From contig NZ_CP028092.1 of assembly GCF_005491705.1 (NCBI RefSeq), forward strand, positions 3,844,001 to 3,908,000: DNA of 64,000 nt, given 5' to 3'. This DNA comes from Pontibacter sp. SGAir0037. GTDB lineage: Bacteria > Bacteroidota > Bacteroidia > Cytophagales > Hymenobacteraceae. The notes beneath the pieces are model-generated. The model did no database searches. It saw only the letters and a program-made list of their open reading frames with translations, and was not told the DNA's origin. Position 1 is the stretch's first letter. Every line of letters begins with the position of its first letter. Positions 13,257 to 37,134 of the stretch are shown here, piece after piece. A program made the position numbers and the translations under genes.

Positions 13257-13409
13257 CCGACGGCTAACCCGCTGTTGTCCCAGCAAACACCTCTGCCAGG
13301 GCATGCAAACGAACTGGTGGCTCCCGCGCCTACAGCTTATAAACAGGCTGCATAATAATTAAACATAACAAAATTTCATAAACTACTTATATCTTCTTAA
13401 ATTGCAATC

Positions 13410-13515
13410 TCTTATCAAGAAAGACTGAGGGACAGGGCCCGATGATGTCTTAGCAACCATGAATAAAAGCTTGGTGCTAACTCCCTCCTGGTAACCATAT
13501 CCAGGGAAGATAAGA
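13410..13515 (+). ncRNA. SAM-I (S-box) riboswitch aptamer before metH
   Basis: The core features of the SAM-I aptamer are present. P1 pairs TCTTATC (13410-13416) with GATAAGA (13509-13515). P2 has the kink-turn core GAGGGACAGGGCCCGATGA. P3 pairs TTAGC-AACC with GGT-GCTAA. P4 pairs CCTGG with CCAGG. It binds S-adenosylmethionine and lowers metH expression when SAM is plentiful. Downstream, TTCTTGATAAG (13545-13555) is a perfect 11-base complement of the 5' P1 region (13411-13421), so the expression platform may compete for that strand. Confidence 0.92.
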
Positions 13516-13590
13516 TTGATATCCCCTTCTGCACCTGGGTGTCCTTCTTGATAAGCGAAAGCCGAAGACGTAAGAGAAGAAGACACTAAC

Positions 13591-32418: not shown

Positions 32419-32607
32419 GCTTATACCACTCTTTGTGAAGCATACGATTTACAACCAGGTATTAGCTACCTTCAACCAGCTAAATGTAACGAATTAAACG
32501 GCAGCAGCCATTTTGCATCATGCTAATCCATACAGGCTGACGCTTATTAAAATTTCATTAAAATTATTTATAAATAATCAATTATATAAAAATAAGCGAC
32601 ATTAATT

Positions 32608-32637
32608 TTGACAATGAAAATAAAACAAATACATTTG
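32608..32637 (+). promoter_or_regulatory. Bacteroidetes-type promoter for tRNA-like RNA 1
   Basis: TTG (32608-32610), exactly 19 bases, then TACATTTG (32630-32637), a perfect TAnnTTTG -7 box. Transcription would begin near 32644, about 12 nt before the RNA's folded 5' end. Confidence 0.75.
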
Positions 32638-32655
32638 CACACACCTAAACAACAG

Positions 32656-32768
32656 TGTAGGGTGTTGAAATTGGCAGACAAGCCCTCCTATCTCGGGGGT
32701 GGAGGTCATAGAATAAAGCAAGCTATTTGTCTAACTACTCCGTGGAGGTTCGACTCCTCCCCCTACAG
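32656..32768 (+). ncRNA. tRNA-like RNA 1 (class II fold, expanded variable arm)
   Basis: The 113 nt fold as a full tRNA. Acceptor TGTAGGG pairs with CCCTACA (7 bp, U1-A72) with discriminator G73. U8 is present. The D stem TTG/CAA encloses a leucine-like loop AAATTGGCAGA with G18-G19. The anticodon stem CCCTC/GGGGG has loop CTATCTC with U33 and putative anticodon AUC. The T arm is GGAGG-TTCGACT-CCTCC. The variable region is 44 nt, about twice that of normal class II tRNAs, with a GGAG/CTCC stem and an inner ATAG/CTAT helix. Position 37 is U instead of the normal purine. CCA is not encoded. A second copy lies at 35840. It fits no standard isoacceptor; role unknown. Confidence 0.75.
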
Positions 32769-32770
32769 CA

Positions 32771-32807
32771 GAAAGGCCGCTCTCACTTACAGTGAGGCGG
32801 CCTTTTC
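32771..32807 (+). terminator. Terminator of tRNA-like RNA 1
   Basis: A long hairpin starts two bases after the folded RNA: GAAAGGCCGC pairs with GCGGCCTTTTC, with CTCAC/GTGAG inside. The 3' arm itself supplies the TTTT tract. Confidence 0.8.
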
Positions 32808-32925
32808 ATTAACCCATTATCAGAAAACTGCCATAACAAACTATTCCCGATAATCAATTTAAAATAACAACTCAAGCTGTTATATTGTATCTGTAACAGG
32901 TACTCCAGAAAGCAGCTTAAACAAA

Positions 32926-33876
32926 GTGGAACACCCAGCACACCTACAGACAAAAGCACCACTCAAAACACGCATTGCCCCTACCCCCAGTGGTTACCTG
33001 CACCTCGGCAATGTATTGTCTTTTGCCATTACCTGGGCACTCGCACGCCAGCAGCAGGGAGAGCTGGTGCTTCGTATAGATGATATTGATAATGAACGGG
33101 TAAGGTCAGCCTATGTAGAGGACATCTTCGAAACGCTGGATTTTTTAGGCATTGATTACGACGAAGGCCCTATAGATGCGCCGGATTTCTACCGGCACTA
33201 CTCACAGCACCACCGCCTCGACCTGTATAATAACACCCTTGACCAACTGGCTCAGCAACGCCTGGTTTATGCCTGCCTCTATTCCCGCACCCAAATAAAG
33301 GTTCGCTCTGCGAAAGGCGATTATCCTCTCACCTGCCGCTCCAGGCAACTTGCCTTGGATACACCCAACAGTGCCTGGCGCCTGCTTATACCGGAAGACA
33401 CAACAATTGCCTTTCAAGACCTTTTGCTAGGCGAAACAACTGTGCCTTTGTTTAACAAAATGCCAGATTTTGTGGTACGCCGTAAAAACAAACTCCCTTC
33501 TTACCAGGTAGCTTCTTTTTGCGATGATGTTTTGATGGGTATAAACACGATAGTACGGGGCAGCGATTTACTTACCTCTACAGCAGCTCAGCTTTTTATT
33601 GCGCGGCAGACTGGCACAGCCACATTTGCTGCGATTAATTTTATACATCACCCCCTTATTCAGGAAGAAAATGGCAACAAACTATCCAAATCCCATGGCT
33701 CGCTTTCGATTAACCAGATGCGCCGGAACGGTTTAAAAGCAGCTGATATCTGGCAAACTTTAGGAAACTTGCTGGGCTGGCAGGAAAACCCGATAACAGA
33801 CTCAAATACTTTTCTGCAACGGTTTAAACTGGAAGATGTAAAGCTGAAAGCTGCTACTTTACCTACGGCTTTCTGA
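32926..33876 (+). CDS. Glutamyl-tRNA synthetase-like protein without anticodon-binding domain (GluQ-RS type)
   Basis: 316 residues, only the class I catalytic core. Both ATP motifs are intact: the HIGH-type SGYLHLGN (22-29) and KLSKS (252-256). RGSDLL (211-216) and MGINTIVRG match the GluRS/GluQ-RS active site. GluQ-RS glutamylates queuosine in tRNA-Asp and has this length. The zinc site of GluQ-RS is C-x-C...Y-x3-C; here it reads C117, Y119, Y133, C137, so one Cys is replaced. The start is GTG at 32926; no ATG is suitable. It lies 119 bases after the terminator of tRNA-like RNA 1. Either it is GluQ-RS or a relative serving the tRNA-like RNAs. Confidence 0.85.
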   Translation: MEHPAHLQTKAPLKTRIAPTPSGYLHLGNVLSFAITWALARQQQGELVLRIDDIDNERVRSAYVEDIFETLDFLGIDYDEGPIDAPDFYRHYSQHHRLDLYNNTLDQLAQQRLVYACLYSRTQIKVRSAKGDYPLTCRSRQLALDTPNSAWRLLIPEDTTIAFQDLLLGETTVPLFNKMPDFVVRRKNKLPSYQVASFCDDVLMGINTIVRGSDLLTSTAAQLFIARQTGTATFAAINFIHHPLIQEENGNKLSKSHGSLSINQMRRNGLKAADIWQTLGNLLGWQENPITDSNTFLQRFKLEDVKLKAATLPTAF

Positions 33877-33881
33877 AGGCA

Positions 33882-34676
33882 CTATACCTTAGCACTCTTT
33901 TCCGGTTGCTCTTCCGGCTGATTTACCAGCCTGTTCAGCGTTTTATCATAATTAGGATGCGTGGTTTTCATAAGTTCGTCCCAAACACGCAGGTACAACC
34001 CATAGTTGCCTTTGAAATACTTATGATGCATGTTATGATTGGTAGAAGTATTAAGCCACTTGCCAAGACGGCTATGTACCAGCCAGCGCGGGTAAATCTC
34101 ATAGCCTAAATGGCCATACACGTTATACACCGTCATAAAAAGCAGAAAGGCCAGTATAGCGTATGTGTGCATGGGTATCAGCAGCACAATTACAAAAATA
34201 ATTCCGCCTTCTACCAGTGCCTCCAGCGGGCTGAAAGAGAATGCCGCCCAGGGCGAAGGATTAACAGATCGGTGGTGTGTCAGGTGAAACCATTTAAAAA
34301 GCCTGGGGTGGTGCATCAGGCGGTGGGTCCAGTAGAAATACGTATCATGGATCAGCAGGGCCAGCACAATGCTTAATCCAAAATACCACCAGCTATACTC
34401 ACTTAGATCGGTATAGATTTTTGTGTATGGCCTTACCGCTGAAGATGAAAGTATGATTGCTATAGTGGCAAAGGCAAAGAAGGTAAGAAAAGAATAACCT
34501 ACTTCCCGCATGTAATCCTTGCGTTTCGGAAACAAGGACTGAATCTTGAGCCTGGAAAACTTTGACGGAAAAAAGATATAAAACAATAAAAAGGCCCCTC
34601 CGGCCACAATTATATAGCGAGCTGCCAGTATGGCGTACATTAACCAAAAATAAGTGTTCATCGCTTTTACTTCCAT
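33882..34676 (-). CDS. Fatty acid hydroxylase / sterol desaturase family membrane protein
   Basis: 264 residues, a membrane di-iron enzyme with about four transmembrane helices. The histidine boxes are complete: HDTYFYWTHRLMHH, HLTHHRS and NHNMHH. Family members hydroxylate or desaturate lipids, carotenoids or sterols. Nothing nearby indicates the lipid. It is convergent with the GluRS-like gene (5-base gap). Start at 34676 is used; an internal ATG five codons later is possible. Confidence 0.92.
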   Translation of the reverse strand: MEVKAMNTYFWLMYAILAARYIIVAGGAFLLFYIFFPSKFSRLKIQSLFPKRKDYMREVGYSFLTFFAFATIAIILSSSAVRPYTKIYTDLSEYSWWYFGLSIVLALLIHDTYFYWTHRLMHHPRLFKWFHLTHHRSVNPSPWAAFSFSPLEALVEGGIIFVIVLLIPMHTYAILAFLLFMTVYNVYGHLGYEIYPRWLVHSRLGKWLNTSTNHNMHHKYFKGNYGLYLRVWDELMKTTHPNYDKTLNRLVNQPEEQPEKSAKV

Positions 34677-34783
34677 AGATAAAATACCTGCCTGTAAAAT
34701 TACAGCCTCTCCACAAAAACGATAAAAAAGTATAAATAAGTTTATTCTTTAAGTGGATTCTACTTCACAATTTCTATAAAAAC

Positions 34784-34816
34784 AAAAGAGCAGGCATTAT
34801 ACATGCCTGCTCTTTT
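34784..34816 (-). terminator. Terminator of the DUF2911 gene
   Basis: A perfect 14-bp stem AAAAGAGCAGGCAT / ATGCCTGCTCTTTT with a 5-nt loop, followed by T-rich sequence on the minus strand. Confidence 0.85.
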
Positions 34817-34856
34817 ATGTAAGCATTACAACTTACGTCTTCACCTGTATCAATGG

Positions 34857-35393
34857 CTATATCTTATTACCGGACTTCACTGAAACAGGCACTTCCAGAT
34901 TTTCCCAGCGCAGCACAAAGCCGTTATTCGTTACGTCGTAAGCAAGTCTTTCGCTCATAGAGGCCGCTTTACGGGGTTTAGTGGTTACCCGCAATTGGTC
35001 TTGCTTTTCGTCATACTGTGTGCCCCACTGCTTTGCTACTTTATTAAAGATAATCGTCCACTGGGCCTCGCCTGGTATGGCATACAGGCTGTATGTACCT
35101 GCAGGCAGGTTTTCACCTTCCACCATTACATCTTTGTCTACAGTAAAGGTAGTTGCCTCATTAGCACCTGCACGCCAAACTTTACCATACGGCACAAGTT
35201 CTCCCCATACAGTACGGCCTTTTACACCTGGGCTGCTATAGTTAATAGTTATGTTAGCTTCCCCAACCTTACCGGAAGCGGAAGCAGAAGGGCTTGGCTT
35301 GCTTGCATTAGCATTCTGAGCCCACGATACAGTAGTGAGCAGCATACTTACCAGCAGTACTGCTGCAAAACTTAAAACAGAGTTCTTCTTCAT
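34857..35393 (-). CDS. DUF2911 domain exported protein
   Basis: 178 residues. The signal peptide is cleaved after VSWAQ. The domain shows the DUF2911 pattern ITINYSSPGVKGRTVWGELVPYGKVWRAGANEATTF and LPAGTYSLYAIPGEAQWTIIFN. The family is abundant in Bacteroidetes, probably periplasmic and beta-rich, with no known function. It stands alone with its own terminator. Confidence 0.92.
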   Translation of the reverse strand: MKKNSVLSFAAVLLVSMLLTTVSWAQNANASKPSPSASASGKVGEANITINYSSPGVKGRTVWGELVPYGKVWRAGANEATTFTVDKDVMVEGENLPAGTYSLYAIPGEAQWTIIFNKVAKQWGTQYDEKQDQLRVTTKPRKAASMSERLAYDVTNNGFVLRWENLEVPVSVKSGNKI

Positions 35394-35785
35394 GGTTTAT
35401 TTTGTTTTGAATTTGTATGAAAAGATAGAGCTTTCTTATCAGAAATCCGTCACCAGACACCATATATTATCTGAAGCTACTCAACAACTCATGCTTTTGC
35501 AGCACCTTTGTTCGAACGCATACCACCTTTCGTACCTGTAATGATTTTACAGTTTACCATTTTCAGTAAAAAAAATTTCAATCTTTCAAGCTCGACAAAC
35601 TACTTTATTCCTCCTTTCAGACTTTTACCAGTTATACAACGTGAGCAATTAATCACTTATAAAACAATGAGTTAGATACTCTTCCCATTAATTTTCCTCC
35701 TTGTTTCAACATCCTTATAAATATGTTAAGCATGTTTACTTATTGTTGAAACAAAAATAATTTTAAATAATTTTTGTTAAAATAT
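35394..35785. other. AT-rich intergenic region before tRNA-like RNA 2
   Basis: About 390 bases without a supported gene. The AT content rises towards the promoter of tRNA-like RNA 2. The promoter of the minus-strand DUF2911 gene is presumably at its left end. Confidence 0.4.
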
Positions 35786-35815
35786 TTGCAATTACGATTT
35801 CAGTGTGTACCTTTA
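35786..35815 (+). promoter_or_regulatory. Bacteroidetes-type promoter for tRNA-like RNA 2
   Basis: TTG (35786-35788), exactly 19 bases, then TACCTTTA (35808-35815), one mismatch from TAnnTTTG. The predicted start near 35822 gives an 18-nt leader. Confidence 0.65.
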
Positions 35816-35839
35816 CATCATCAGAATAAAACAACACAA

Positions 35840-35976
35840 TGTAGGGTGTTGAAACTGGCAGACAAGCCCTCCTATCTCGGGGGTGGAGAATCTGGGATAA
35901 AGCAACTTTTGAACTAACACTAGTACCAAGATATTTGCCTAACTACTCCGTGGAGGTTCGATTCCTCCCCCTACAG
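35840..35976 (+). ncRNA. tRNA-like RNA 2 (paralogue with a longer variable arm)
   Basis: 137 nt, with the same acceptor (TGTAGGG/CCCTACA, G73), D arm, anticodon arm (CCCTC-CTATCTC-GGGGG) and T arm as RNA 1. Outside the variable arm the two differ at only two positions, one in the D loop (T to C) and one in the T loop (C to T). The variable region is 68 nt because of a 24-nt insertion. The inner helix is kept with changed bases: ATCT/AGAT here against ATAG/CTAT in RNA 1. The ATAAAGCAA and CTAACTA segments in the arm are conserved. It has its own promoter and terminator. It is not a normal isoacceptor. Confidence 0.75.
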
Positions 35977-35980
35977 CAAC

Positions 35981-36019
35981 AAAAAGCCTCCTCAAGAGAA
36001 ATCTTGAGGAGGCTTTTTT
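35981..36019 (+). terminator. Terminator of tRNA-like RNA 2
   Basis: A perfect 17-bp stem (AAAAAGCCTCCTCAAGA with its complement) and a short GAAA-type loop, ending in TTTTTT. It starts five bases after the folded RNA. Confidence 0.9.
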
Positions 36020-36075
36020 ATGGGCTATAACTTAGCTGCTACTGCCACTCTATGTTTATAATAGTATATACGCTG

Positions 36076-37134
36076 TTAAAGTGCCGTTTCTTGTTTAGCA
36101 AAGCCACTGCTTGGCACTTTGTCTTCGGCTCCTGCAACAACTGGTTTCGCTGTTTTTCTACCATACCAGTTTTTAATCAACTGCATGGATGGCTGCTCCA
36201 CATAGGTAGTAATAAGATAGGCACAGGCTATACTGAACAGAATTGGCGGTACAATTACGAACACGCTGTTTCCGAAATATTCTTTTGTATAGTTTAAAAT
36301 GATGTATCCAATAAACTGATGGAATAAGTACAGCGAATAAGAGATACTACCCAAAAAAGTAAAGGGCTTATTAATCAGGAAATCCAGTTTACCACTTATA
36401 CCAAGATAGAATATAGCATAGATACCAGCCACTATCGCCATATCAGCTAATCCTTTTTTTGCATAAATAGACAGGGCAAGGGCCAGCGAAAGAGCAAGAC
36501 AGGCTAAGATTGTCTTCTTTTTTTCTGGCTCAAATTTCAGGAGGTAAAACAGGATACCGGAATAAAAGAACACCCCGTAGTAGAGGTTCAGAATGGCATT
36601 GAAATGTTTTATTTCGAAAACATGCACGTTTATGAAGCTCAAAGCCATCCAGGCTATTCCGATGTACAGCATCTTGTCCAGCTTCTTAACCATAAAAATC
36701 CCGAGCAGCATCAGGTAAAACATCCACTCCTGAAAAAGGGTCCAGTATACCCAGTCGACGTTTGGCACCCCTACCAGCTTCTGGAACATCGTCAAGTTTA
36801 CCAGCATTTCACTAAAGGAAGTCTCAAACCCAGGCAGCCCGAAAAGCTGTACACACAGGAAAGTAGCCAACACACTTATCCAGTAAGCCGGGTATAACCT
36901 TCCGGCTCTCTTTATCAGAAATTCTTTGCTACTGGTAATTTTTCTGAAGCTGAAAAAGATCACAAACCCACTTATCATAAAAAAGAGCTCCACGCCATAG
37001 TTTCCGTAATTAATATCAAAGGCAGGTGAGAAGTTATGGCCGAAAACATCCCGGTAAGTGGCTGTGTAATGAAAAAGAACAACAAAAAGCGCAGCAAATC
37101 CTCTTAAGGAATCTAAAAATAAAAATCTGTTCAT
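36076..37134 (-). CDS. Acyltransferase family 3 membrane protein (OatA/NodX type)
   Basis: 352 residues with about ten transmembrane helices. It begins RFLFLDSLRGFAALFVVLFHY, the family start with the catalytic His, and has KRAGRLYPAYW, the conserved Arg motif. Such proteins acylate (often O-acetylate) exported polysaccharides or lipids. It has no attached SGNH domain; an SGNH hydrolase gene lies 1.4 kb away but is periplasmic and separate. Confidence 0.9.
   Translation of the reverse strand: MNRFLFLDSLRGFAALFVVLFHYTATYRDVFGHNFSPAFDINYGNYGVELFFMISGFVIFFSFRKITSSKEFLIKRAGRLYPAYWISVLATFLCVQLFGLPGFETSFSEMLVNLTMFQKLVGVPNVDWVYWTLFQEWMFYLMLLGIFMVKKLDKMLYIGIAWMALSFINVHVFEIKHFNAILNLYYGVFFYSGILFYLLKFEPEKKKTILACLALSLALALSIYAKKGLADMAIVAGIYAIFYLGISGKLDFLINKPFTFLGSISYSLYLFHQFIGYIILNYTKEYFGNSVFVIVPPILFSIACAYLITTYVEQPSMQLIKNWYGRKTAKPVVAGAEDKVPSSGFAKQETAL

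Follow-up and report, generated by a model that had tools for sequence, protein, structure and literature searches.

The distribution and sequence conservation of two tRNA-like RNAs from Pontibacter sp. SGAir0037 show that they are members of a conserved RNA family present in many Bacteroidota, and the family is very likely linked to asparagine metabolism. The window analyzed here is a stretch of 64,000 nucleotides of the SGAir0037 genome (contig NZ_CP028092.1, positions 3,844,001 to 3,908,000), and it contains both genes, RNA1 (32656..32768) and RNA2 (35840..35976), on the plus strand. The bases that never vary in the family are found in the acceptor end and the anticodon-type loop, a gene for an AsnC-like regulator is its recurrent neighbor, and at that locus the RNA alternates with a gene for asparagine synthetase A. 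We propose that these RNAs do not decode and serve instead as dedicated amino-acid acceptors in the synthesis of asparagine, a reading that we hold at slightly less than even confidence. An RNA family that extends over much of a phylum and is missed by ARAGORN and Rfam searches is worth recording in itself.

The RNA Family and Its Distribution

RNA1 and RNA2 have the core features of a tRNA and a very long variable arm. They measure 113 and 137 nt to G73, and both have a 7-bp acceptor stem, U8, A14, G18-G19, a 5-bp T stem, a T loop with TTCGA, U1-A72, and G73. In RNA1, U1-G2-U3 (32656..32658, plus strand) pairs with A70-C71-A72 (32765-32767), and G73 is at 32768; the same elements of RNA2 lie at 35840..35842 (plus strand), 35973-35975, and 35976. 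The anticodon-type loop is CUAUCUC (A34, U35, C36, U37, C38) in both RNAs, at 32688..32694 and 35872..35878 on the plus strand. The variable regions (32700..32743 and 35884..35951, plus strand) place 44 and 68 nt between the anticodon stem and the T stem. In RNA1 the arm consists of a GGAG/CTCC stem (32701-32704 and 32738-32741), an internal loop (GAATAAA/CTAACTA), and a capping hairpin. RNA2 has the same stem (35885-35888 and 35946-35949), the internal loop GGGATAAA/CTAACTA, and a longer capping hairpin. Outside the variable region the two RNAs differ at two positions. A first-pass annotation, made from the sequence alone, had given the coordinates exactly and had described the core tRNA features, arm lengths, and differences. 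It had counted two copies, which is correct for the window, but a genome search finds a third at G000:C1:3438602-3438740.

The RNA occurs throughout the Cytophagales and beyond. By DNA search, which undercounts the RNA, homologues are present in 10 of the 50 genomes from the genus, with two to four copies each, and in 63 of the 150 genomes from the family, mostly as single copies outside the genus. Named relatives that carry it include Pontibacter silvestris, P. ummariensis, P. pamirensis, and Botryobacter ruber. A covariance model, the approach recommended by the first-pass annotation, was built from 32 members and used for a wider genome search. Most best matches in the Cytophagales have E values of 1e-20 to 1e-35, while genomes without the RNA give only matches of about 1e-11 to 1e-13, the level of ordinary tRNA-Leu. 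The model also finds the RNA in other families of the Bacteroidia and in one family of another class, and it finds none in the flavobacterial and Bacteroides-like genomes sampled (group names presumed). Tandem arrays are common and reach seven copies. In the arrays of six to seven copies (L139 6368-7398, L142 6331-7435, L144 7041-8300) arms of unequal length and sequence occur in the same array, which gives the impression that variants are being maintained together. Phage and plasmid records have no match to the RNA, and an origin from a mobile element or phage was rejected for this reason.

The family escapes the standard tools for finding tRNAs. ARAGORN calls neither RNA1 nor RNA2 as a tRNA or a transfer-messenger RNA (tmRNA). 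Rfam has no match to them at the gathering score, and at E values up to 10 it gives only chance matches elsewhere. Recognition by ARAGORN or the Rfam tRNA model fails for the family as a whole, with the exception of one armless relative described below. No description of such an RNA was found in the open-access literature searched, and one may exist elsewhere.

Fold and Variable Arm

Compensatory changes support the cloverleaf. In the alignment of 32 sequences, 99.6% of the stem cells pair, and both bases have changed in six pairs. The alignment has a covariation score of 0.199, compared with 0.081 in shuffled controls (0 of 500) and a maximum of 0.088 in slid controls. At the first pair of the D stem, U-A, G-C, and A-U all occur. 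Acceptor pairs 6 and 7 are GG/CC in some members and AA/UU in others, and GGAG/CUCC in the arm stem gives way to GAAG/CUUC or GGUG/CACC; each of these changes is compensated. The T loop, G18-G19, U8, and the 7+5 acceptor/T stack that define a cloverleaf are all present. The folding energies of RNA1 and RNA2 as single sequences are no better than those of shuffles (z -0.8 and -1.3) and are uninformative, so the structural evidence is comparative.

Almost every member has the long arm, yet the family is not defined by it. The variable region is 39-106 nt long and lineage-specific. Its common plan is a 4-bp stem, an internal loop (GGGAUAAA-like on the 5' side, CUAAC-like on the 3' side), and a capping hairpin of very variable length, which in some members is only GC-UUCG-GC. 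One natural member has lost the arm: a 76-nt RNA on the minus strand at G053:C23:55338-55413 (L244 439-514) keeps UGU/ACA, G73, and the loop CUAUCUC, and ARAGORN reads it as tRNA-Asp (atc). Since this member retained the acceptor end and the loop, the arm is dispensable there, and the emphasis of the first-pass annotation on arm length holds for nearly all members without identifying what defines them. Two other genomes, G098 and G101, have model scores like that of G053 and may carry an armless form too. A stretch in the outer arm, GGGTTGACCAC, is conserved in many long-armed members (L114, L115, L116, L120, L125, L126, L127, L131-L135, and L141). Another stretch, CCUCCUAUCU, resembles the 3' end of Bacteroidota 16S rRNA. 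Mimicry of the anti-Shine-Dalgarno sequence was considered, and the resemblance is probably a coincidence because its bases lie partly in the paired arm.

Invariant Positions

The positions that never vary are those expected of an RNA that would be aspartylated by aspartyl-tRNA synthetase (AspRS) and then amidated by GatCAB. All 94 distinct complete members share U1-A72, G2-C71, U3-A70, and G73, whereas pairs 4-7 show compensated variation. U35, C36, and C38 are also identical in 94 of 94. G34 is found in 74 of the 94, and the most frequent loop is CUGUCUC. The tRNA-Asp of the same genome has G1-C72, G2-C71, U3-A70, G73, and the loop CUGUCAC. The acceptor end of the RNA is thus that of tRNA-Asp with pair 1 alone changed from G-C to U-A, and CUGUCUC differs from the tRNA-Asp loop only at position 37 (A37 to U). 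The tRNA-Asn and tRNA-Gln of the genome have U1-A72. Aspartate identity depends on G73, G34, U35, C36, and C38, with a minor contribution from G2-C71 (PMC9976931), and Asp-tRNA is amidated when pair 1 is U1-A72 but not when it is G1-C72 (PMC9976931; PMC4206432). Every one of the 94 members has G73, U35, C36, C38, and G2-C71, as in an AspRS substrate, and U1-A72, as in a GatCAB substrate. The first-pass annotation had noticed U1-A72 and G73 and read them as fitting neither leucine nor serine. This was too narrow, as together with U35, C36, and C38 they correspond to aspartate identity combined with the pair recognized by GatCAB. Glutamate and glutamine are less likely than aspartate as the amino acids involved: the tRNA-Glu and tRNA-Gln of the window genome have A73, and its tRNA-Glu lacks C38. 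In the tRNA-Gln, acceptor pairs 1-3 (UGU/ACA) are the same as in the RNA family.

The RNAs are very probably non-decoding, judging from positions 33 and 37, which are unfit for decoding. A decoding tRNA has U33 and a purine at 37 in its 7-nt anticodon loop. Among the 94 members all four bases occur at position 33, and U occupies position 37 almost without exception, so the U33 annotated in RNA1 and RNA2 is correct for these two copies and is not a feature of the family. There is little doubt that the family as a whole consists of non-decoding tRNA-like RNAs. The deep conservation, the covariation, the unfit positions 33 and 37, and the lack of an Rfam match strongly support the earlier proposal that the RNA family is maintained for a task other than translation.

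Linkage to AsnC and Asparagine Synthetase A

An AsnC-like gene is divergent from the RNA in most lineages that have a single copy. The two genes are mostly 120-200 bp apart, and the arrangement is seen in eight families (f1, f4, f11, f15, f19, f23, f24, and f66). The AsnC-like gene matches NF008384 with an E value of about 1e-48, yet it falls under the curated cut-off. No other gene is a recurrent partner of the RNA, and there is no recurrent transferase gene. In flavobacterial and Bacteroides-like genomes (names presumed), relatives of the AsnC-like gene have no RNA beside them. In genus g3 (L073-L078) the AsnC-like gene next to the RNA is followed by a convergent gene for AspRS.

The RNA and asparagine synthetase A share one regulatory slot, since the orthologous AsnC faces either of them. 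In Pontibacter and in genus g6 this regulator faces a gene for an archaeal-type asparagine synthetase A of 317 aa, which matches NF005054 above the cut-off and has 1nnh and 3p8t as its closest PDB entries. In a tree of 54 regulators, the synthetase-linked ones are nested among the RNA-linked ones (midpoint root, some weak forks). Among the 150 genomes from the family, 58 have only the RNA, 46 only the synthetase, 5 both, and 41 neither (RNA by DNA search, descent ignored). The corresponding numbers for the genus are 5, 36, 5, and 4 (Fisher p = 0.01, descent ignored). The RNA and the archaeal-type synthetase tend to be mutually exclusive. In E. coli, asparagine synthetase A is activated by AsnC, an effect that asparagine abolishes (PMC4482635). 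A connection of the RNA family to asparagine metabolism is highly probable in view of its linkage to AsnC and its alternation with asparagine synthetase A. The functions suggested by the first-pass annotation, delivery of an amino acid to a metabolite or envelope component or regulation by mimicry, were guesses, and these observations point to asparagine supply instead.

Enzymes for Charging, Amidation, and Asparagine Synthesis

Within this family gatB is found in 149 of 150 genomes, the exception being an incomplete assembly, so GatCAB says nothing there about whether the RNA is present. One match with the size and score of AspRS is found in each genome sampled. A fourth class-IIb match in Pontibacter and g6 goes with the synthetase, and a few Hymenobacter-like genomes also have a fourth. 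No match of the size of glutaminyl-tRNA synthetase is found among the genomes sampled from this family, while most other families sampled have one, so GatCAB presumably serves tRNA-Gln here too. All but one of the RNA-positive genomes sampled encode an AsnB-family protein, which belongs to the 600-700 aa kind. The two such genes examined, in the window genome (G000) and in G074, adjoin a gene for a sugar-nucleotide dehydrogenase and score about 300, far short of the AsnB cut-off of 499. For AsnB of the 560-aa E. coli kind, there are partial matches in RNA-negative genomes only, and one is confirmed (913 bits). One RNA-positive genome, G506, has no AsnB-family match and no fourth class-IIb match.

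Proposed Role and Alternatives

The RNA may be a handle on which asparagine is made. It would be processed, receive CCA, and then be aspartylated by the cell's AspRS, which would recognize G73, G2-C71, U35, C36, and C38, plus G34 in most lineages. GatCAB would then convert Asp-RNA to Asn-RNA, since U1-A72 replaces the G1-C72 found in tRNA-Asp. The asparagine would be released or handed on, which is the weakest step. An Asn-bearing RNA with an aspartate-type anticodon would be kept off aspartate codons by its long arm and by the changes at positions 33 and 37. In most lineages the divergent AsnC-like regulator would adjust the supply of RNA, as E. coli AsnC does with asparagine synthetase A. 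The presence of multiple RNA copies fits a stoichiometric handle. Aspartylation of the RNA is somewhat more likely than not, the chances for amidation of Asp-RNA are about even, and free asparagine as the output is somewhat doubtful. The most complete version, an RNA cofactor that joins the AspRS identity of tRNA-Asp to the GatCAB pair of tRNA-Asn and tRNA-Gln, is controlled by AsnC, and replaces the synthetase as a source of free asparagine across a large part of the Bacteroidota, is more tentative still. If it is true, the evolution of a separate RNA acceptor can free tRNA-dependent amino-acid synthesis from its link to translation, with RNA as a coenzyme-like handle in amino-acid production. 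The asparagine supply of Bacteroidota that have no obvious housekeeping asparagine synthetase would be accounted for as well.

Several observations weigh against a role in asparagine synthesis. To our knowledge, no asparagine-releasing enzyme has been described. Most RNA-positive genomes encode an AsnB-like protein of some 630 aa, which could be the asparagine maker. The exclusion is incomplete, as the genus includes the five genomes with both the RNA and the synthetase and the four with neither. In addition, the RNA copies of the window genome are not adjacent to AsnC, and the RNA of Pontibacter lies elsewhere. Finally, G34 is a strong aspartate determinant, but the copies in the window have A34 and some members have C34 or U34. 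Bacterial AspRS can also use tRNA-Glu as a substrate, together with glutamate (PMC6523644), which suggests, but does not prove, some tolerance at position 34.

Other roles would account for part of the evidence. The RNA might be a regulatory sensor or decoy that mimics an AspRS/GatCAB substrate within an AsnC circuit and titrates the enzymes or reports asparagine status, with no net synthesis. The AsnC linkage fits this idea, the conserved internal loop of the arm could bind a protein, and tandem copies would raise the dose; however, a sensor or decoy alone explains neither the slot shared with asparagine synthetase nor the invariance of a productive AspRS and GatCAB identity set, and it is considered unlikely. 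Non-ribosomal users of aminoacyl-tRNA are known, and a non-decoding loop with an intact acceptor end would suit an Asp- or Asn-RNA that feeds a non-ribosomal transferase to make a lipid, cell-wall, or peptide product. AsnC is the sole recurrent partner and no transferase gene recurs beside the RNA, which makes such a donor a little less likely again. The very long (39-106 nt) and lineage-specific arms would be natural in an uncharged small RNA that inherited a tRNA fold and regulates through base pairing or protein binding, but the acceptor end and G73 are the most conserved parts and survive loss of the arm, so that this role is improbable.

Two further explanations treat the RNA as an acceptor of a conventional kind, and both are very improbable. 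A minor tRNA-Asp isoacceptor working in translation would fit the full cloverleaf, the GUC found in 74 of 94 members, and the reading of the armless relative as tRNA-Asp by ARAGORN. Position 33 can be any base and 37 is mostly U, however, and the genome already encodes an ordinary tRNA-Asp(GUC) along with the other usual tRNAs. Furthermore, U1-A72 would expose such a tRNA to amidation and lead to misreading of aspartate codons. Charging with serine by seryl-tRNA synthetase is suggested by the class II arm and G73, as this enzyme reads a long arm and G73 (PMC7609411). The family has two unpaired bases before the T stem, like the tRNA-Leu of the genome, while its tRNA-Ser(GCT) appears by eye to have fewer. 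A serine acceptor also leaves the invariant U35, C36, and C38 and the asparagine link unexplained, and an armless member exists.

Promoters, Terminators, and Neighboring Genes

Both RNA genes have a promoter of the Bacteroidota type and a terminator hairpin. Promoters and terminators in the window were read from the sequence, with the promoter pattern TTTG, 19 nt, TAnnTTTG. The RNA1 promoter is at 32607..32637 on the plus strand (TTTG at 32607-32610 and, after 19 nt, TACATTTG at 32630-32637), and that of RNA2 is at 35785..35815 on the plus strand (TTTG at 35785-35788 and, after 19 nt, TACCTTTA at 35808-35815). The hairpins start just beyond the acceptor ends, at 32773..32807 for RNA1 (AAGGCCGC...GCGGCCTTTT) and 35982..36020 for RNA2 (AAAGCCTCCTCAAG...CTTGAGGAGGCTTTTTT), both on the plus strand. 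Among 51 distinct loci of this bacterial family, a -7-like box is present at 50 (15 expected from shuffles), the two-box promoter pattern at 31 (0.9 expected), and a terminator that passes a strict test at 28 (0.3 expected). The intrinsic terminators of the first-pass annotation are thus corroborated, and its consensus promoters are present in the form typical of Bacteroidota.

One protein-coding gene near the RNAs was considered as a partner and is probably incidental. A GluQRS-like gene lies beside RNA1 (32926..33876, plus strand), and GluQRS is also found within about 2 kb of the copies in G008 and G030, yet its presence does not track the RNA. It is absent in the RNA-positive genomes G014, G036, and G041 and present in the RNA-negative genomes G001, G005, G011, and G045. 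The RNAs are also flanked by genes for a fatty-acid hydroxylase (33882-34676), a DUF2911 protein (34857-35393), and an acyltransferase-3 protein (36076-37134). Eight further Pontibacter loci have the RNA and a DUF2911 homologue no more than a few kb apart, probably because of old synteny. Between the fatty-acid hydroxylase and DUF2911 genes there is a strong hairpin flanked on each side by runs of A and T (34782-34818), which is probably a terminator; Rfam matches to the L20 leader and sraA at this position are below threshold. Elsewhere the window has an S-adenosylmethionine riboswitch (13409-13516; Rfam RF00162, 77 bits) and, on the minus strand at 690-925, ordinary genes for tRNA-Leu(TAA) and tRNA-Gly(GCC).

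Relation to Known RNAs and Asparagine Pathways

The family resembles several unusual or class II tRNAs but differs from each of them. It has in common with tRNA-Leu a 3-bp D stem, the D loop AACTGGYAGA, U44, and two unpaired bases after the arm, while G73, U1-A72, the aspartate-type loop, and an arm of up to 106 nt with a conserved internal loop set it apart. Allo-tRNAs and selenocysteine tRNA are also tRNA-like genes with unusual architecture and long arms (PMC7609411). Their acceptor/T architecture is 8/4, 9/3, or 8/5, in contrast to 7+5 in this family, which has a 3-bp D stem and no loop for decoding stop or sense codons. Like the family as proposed here, tmRNA uses a tRNA-like acceptor end outside ordinary decoding; the family RNAs have full D and anticodon arms and no tag reading frame, and ARAGORN calls no tmRNA.

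The closest functional parallels are two known routes to asparagine. In Deinococcus, Thermus, and Bdellovibrio, AspRS charges tRNA-Asn and GatCAB amidates the product, and this tRNA-dependent synthesis is used where asparagine synthetases are missing (PMC4206432). The U1-A72 amidation signal and the aspartate identity for charging are shared with the RNA family, and gatB is present in nearly all genomes of the bacterial family to which Pontibacter belongs. In that pathway, however, a decoding tRNA-Asn is used and the asparagine goes into protein, whereas here there is a separate RNA with an aspartate-type loop that is unfit to decode. The asnC-asnA locus of E. coli (PMC4482635) likewise pairs an AsnC-type regulator with a gene for asparagine supply, and in Pontibacter the partner of AsnC is also asparagine synthetase A. 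In most of the Bacteroidota lineages that carry the RNA, the partner of AsnC is the RNA gene.

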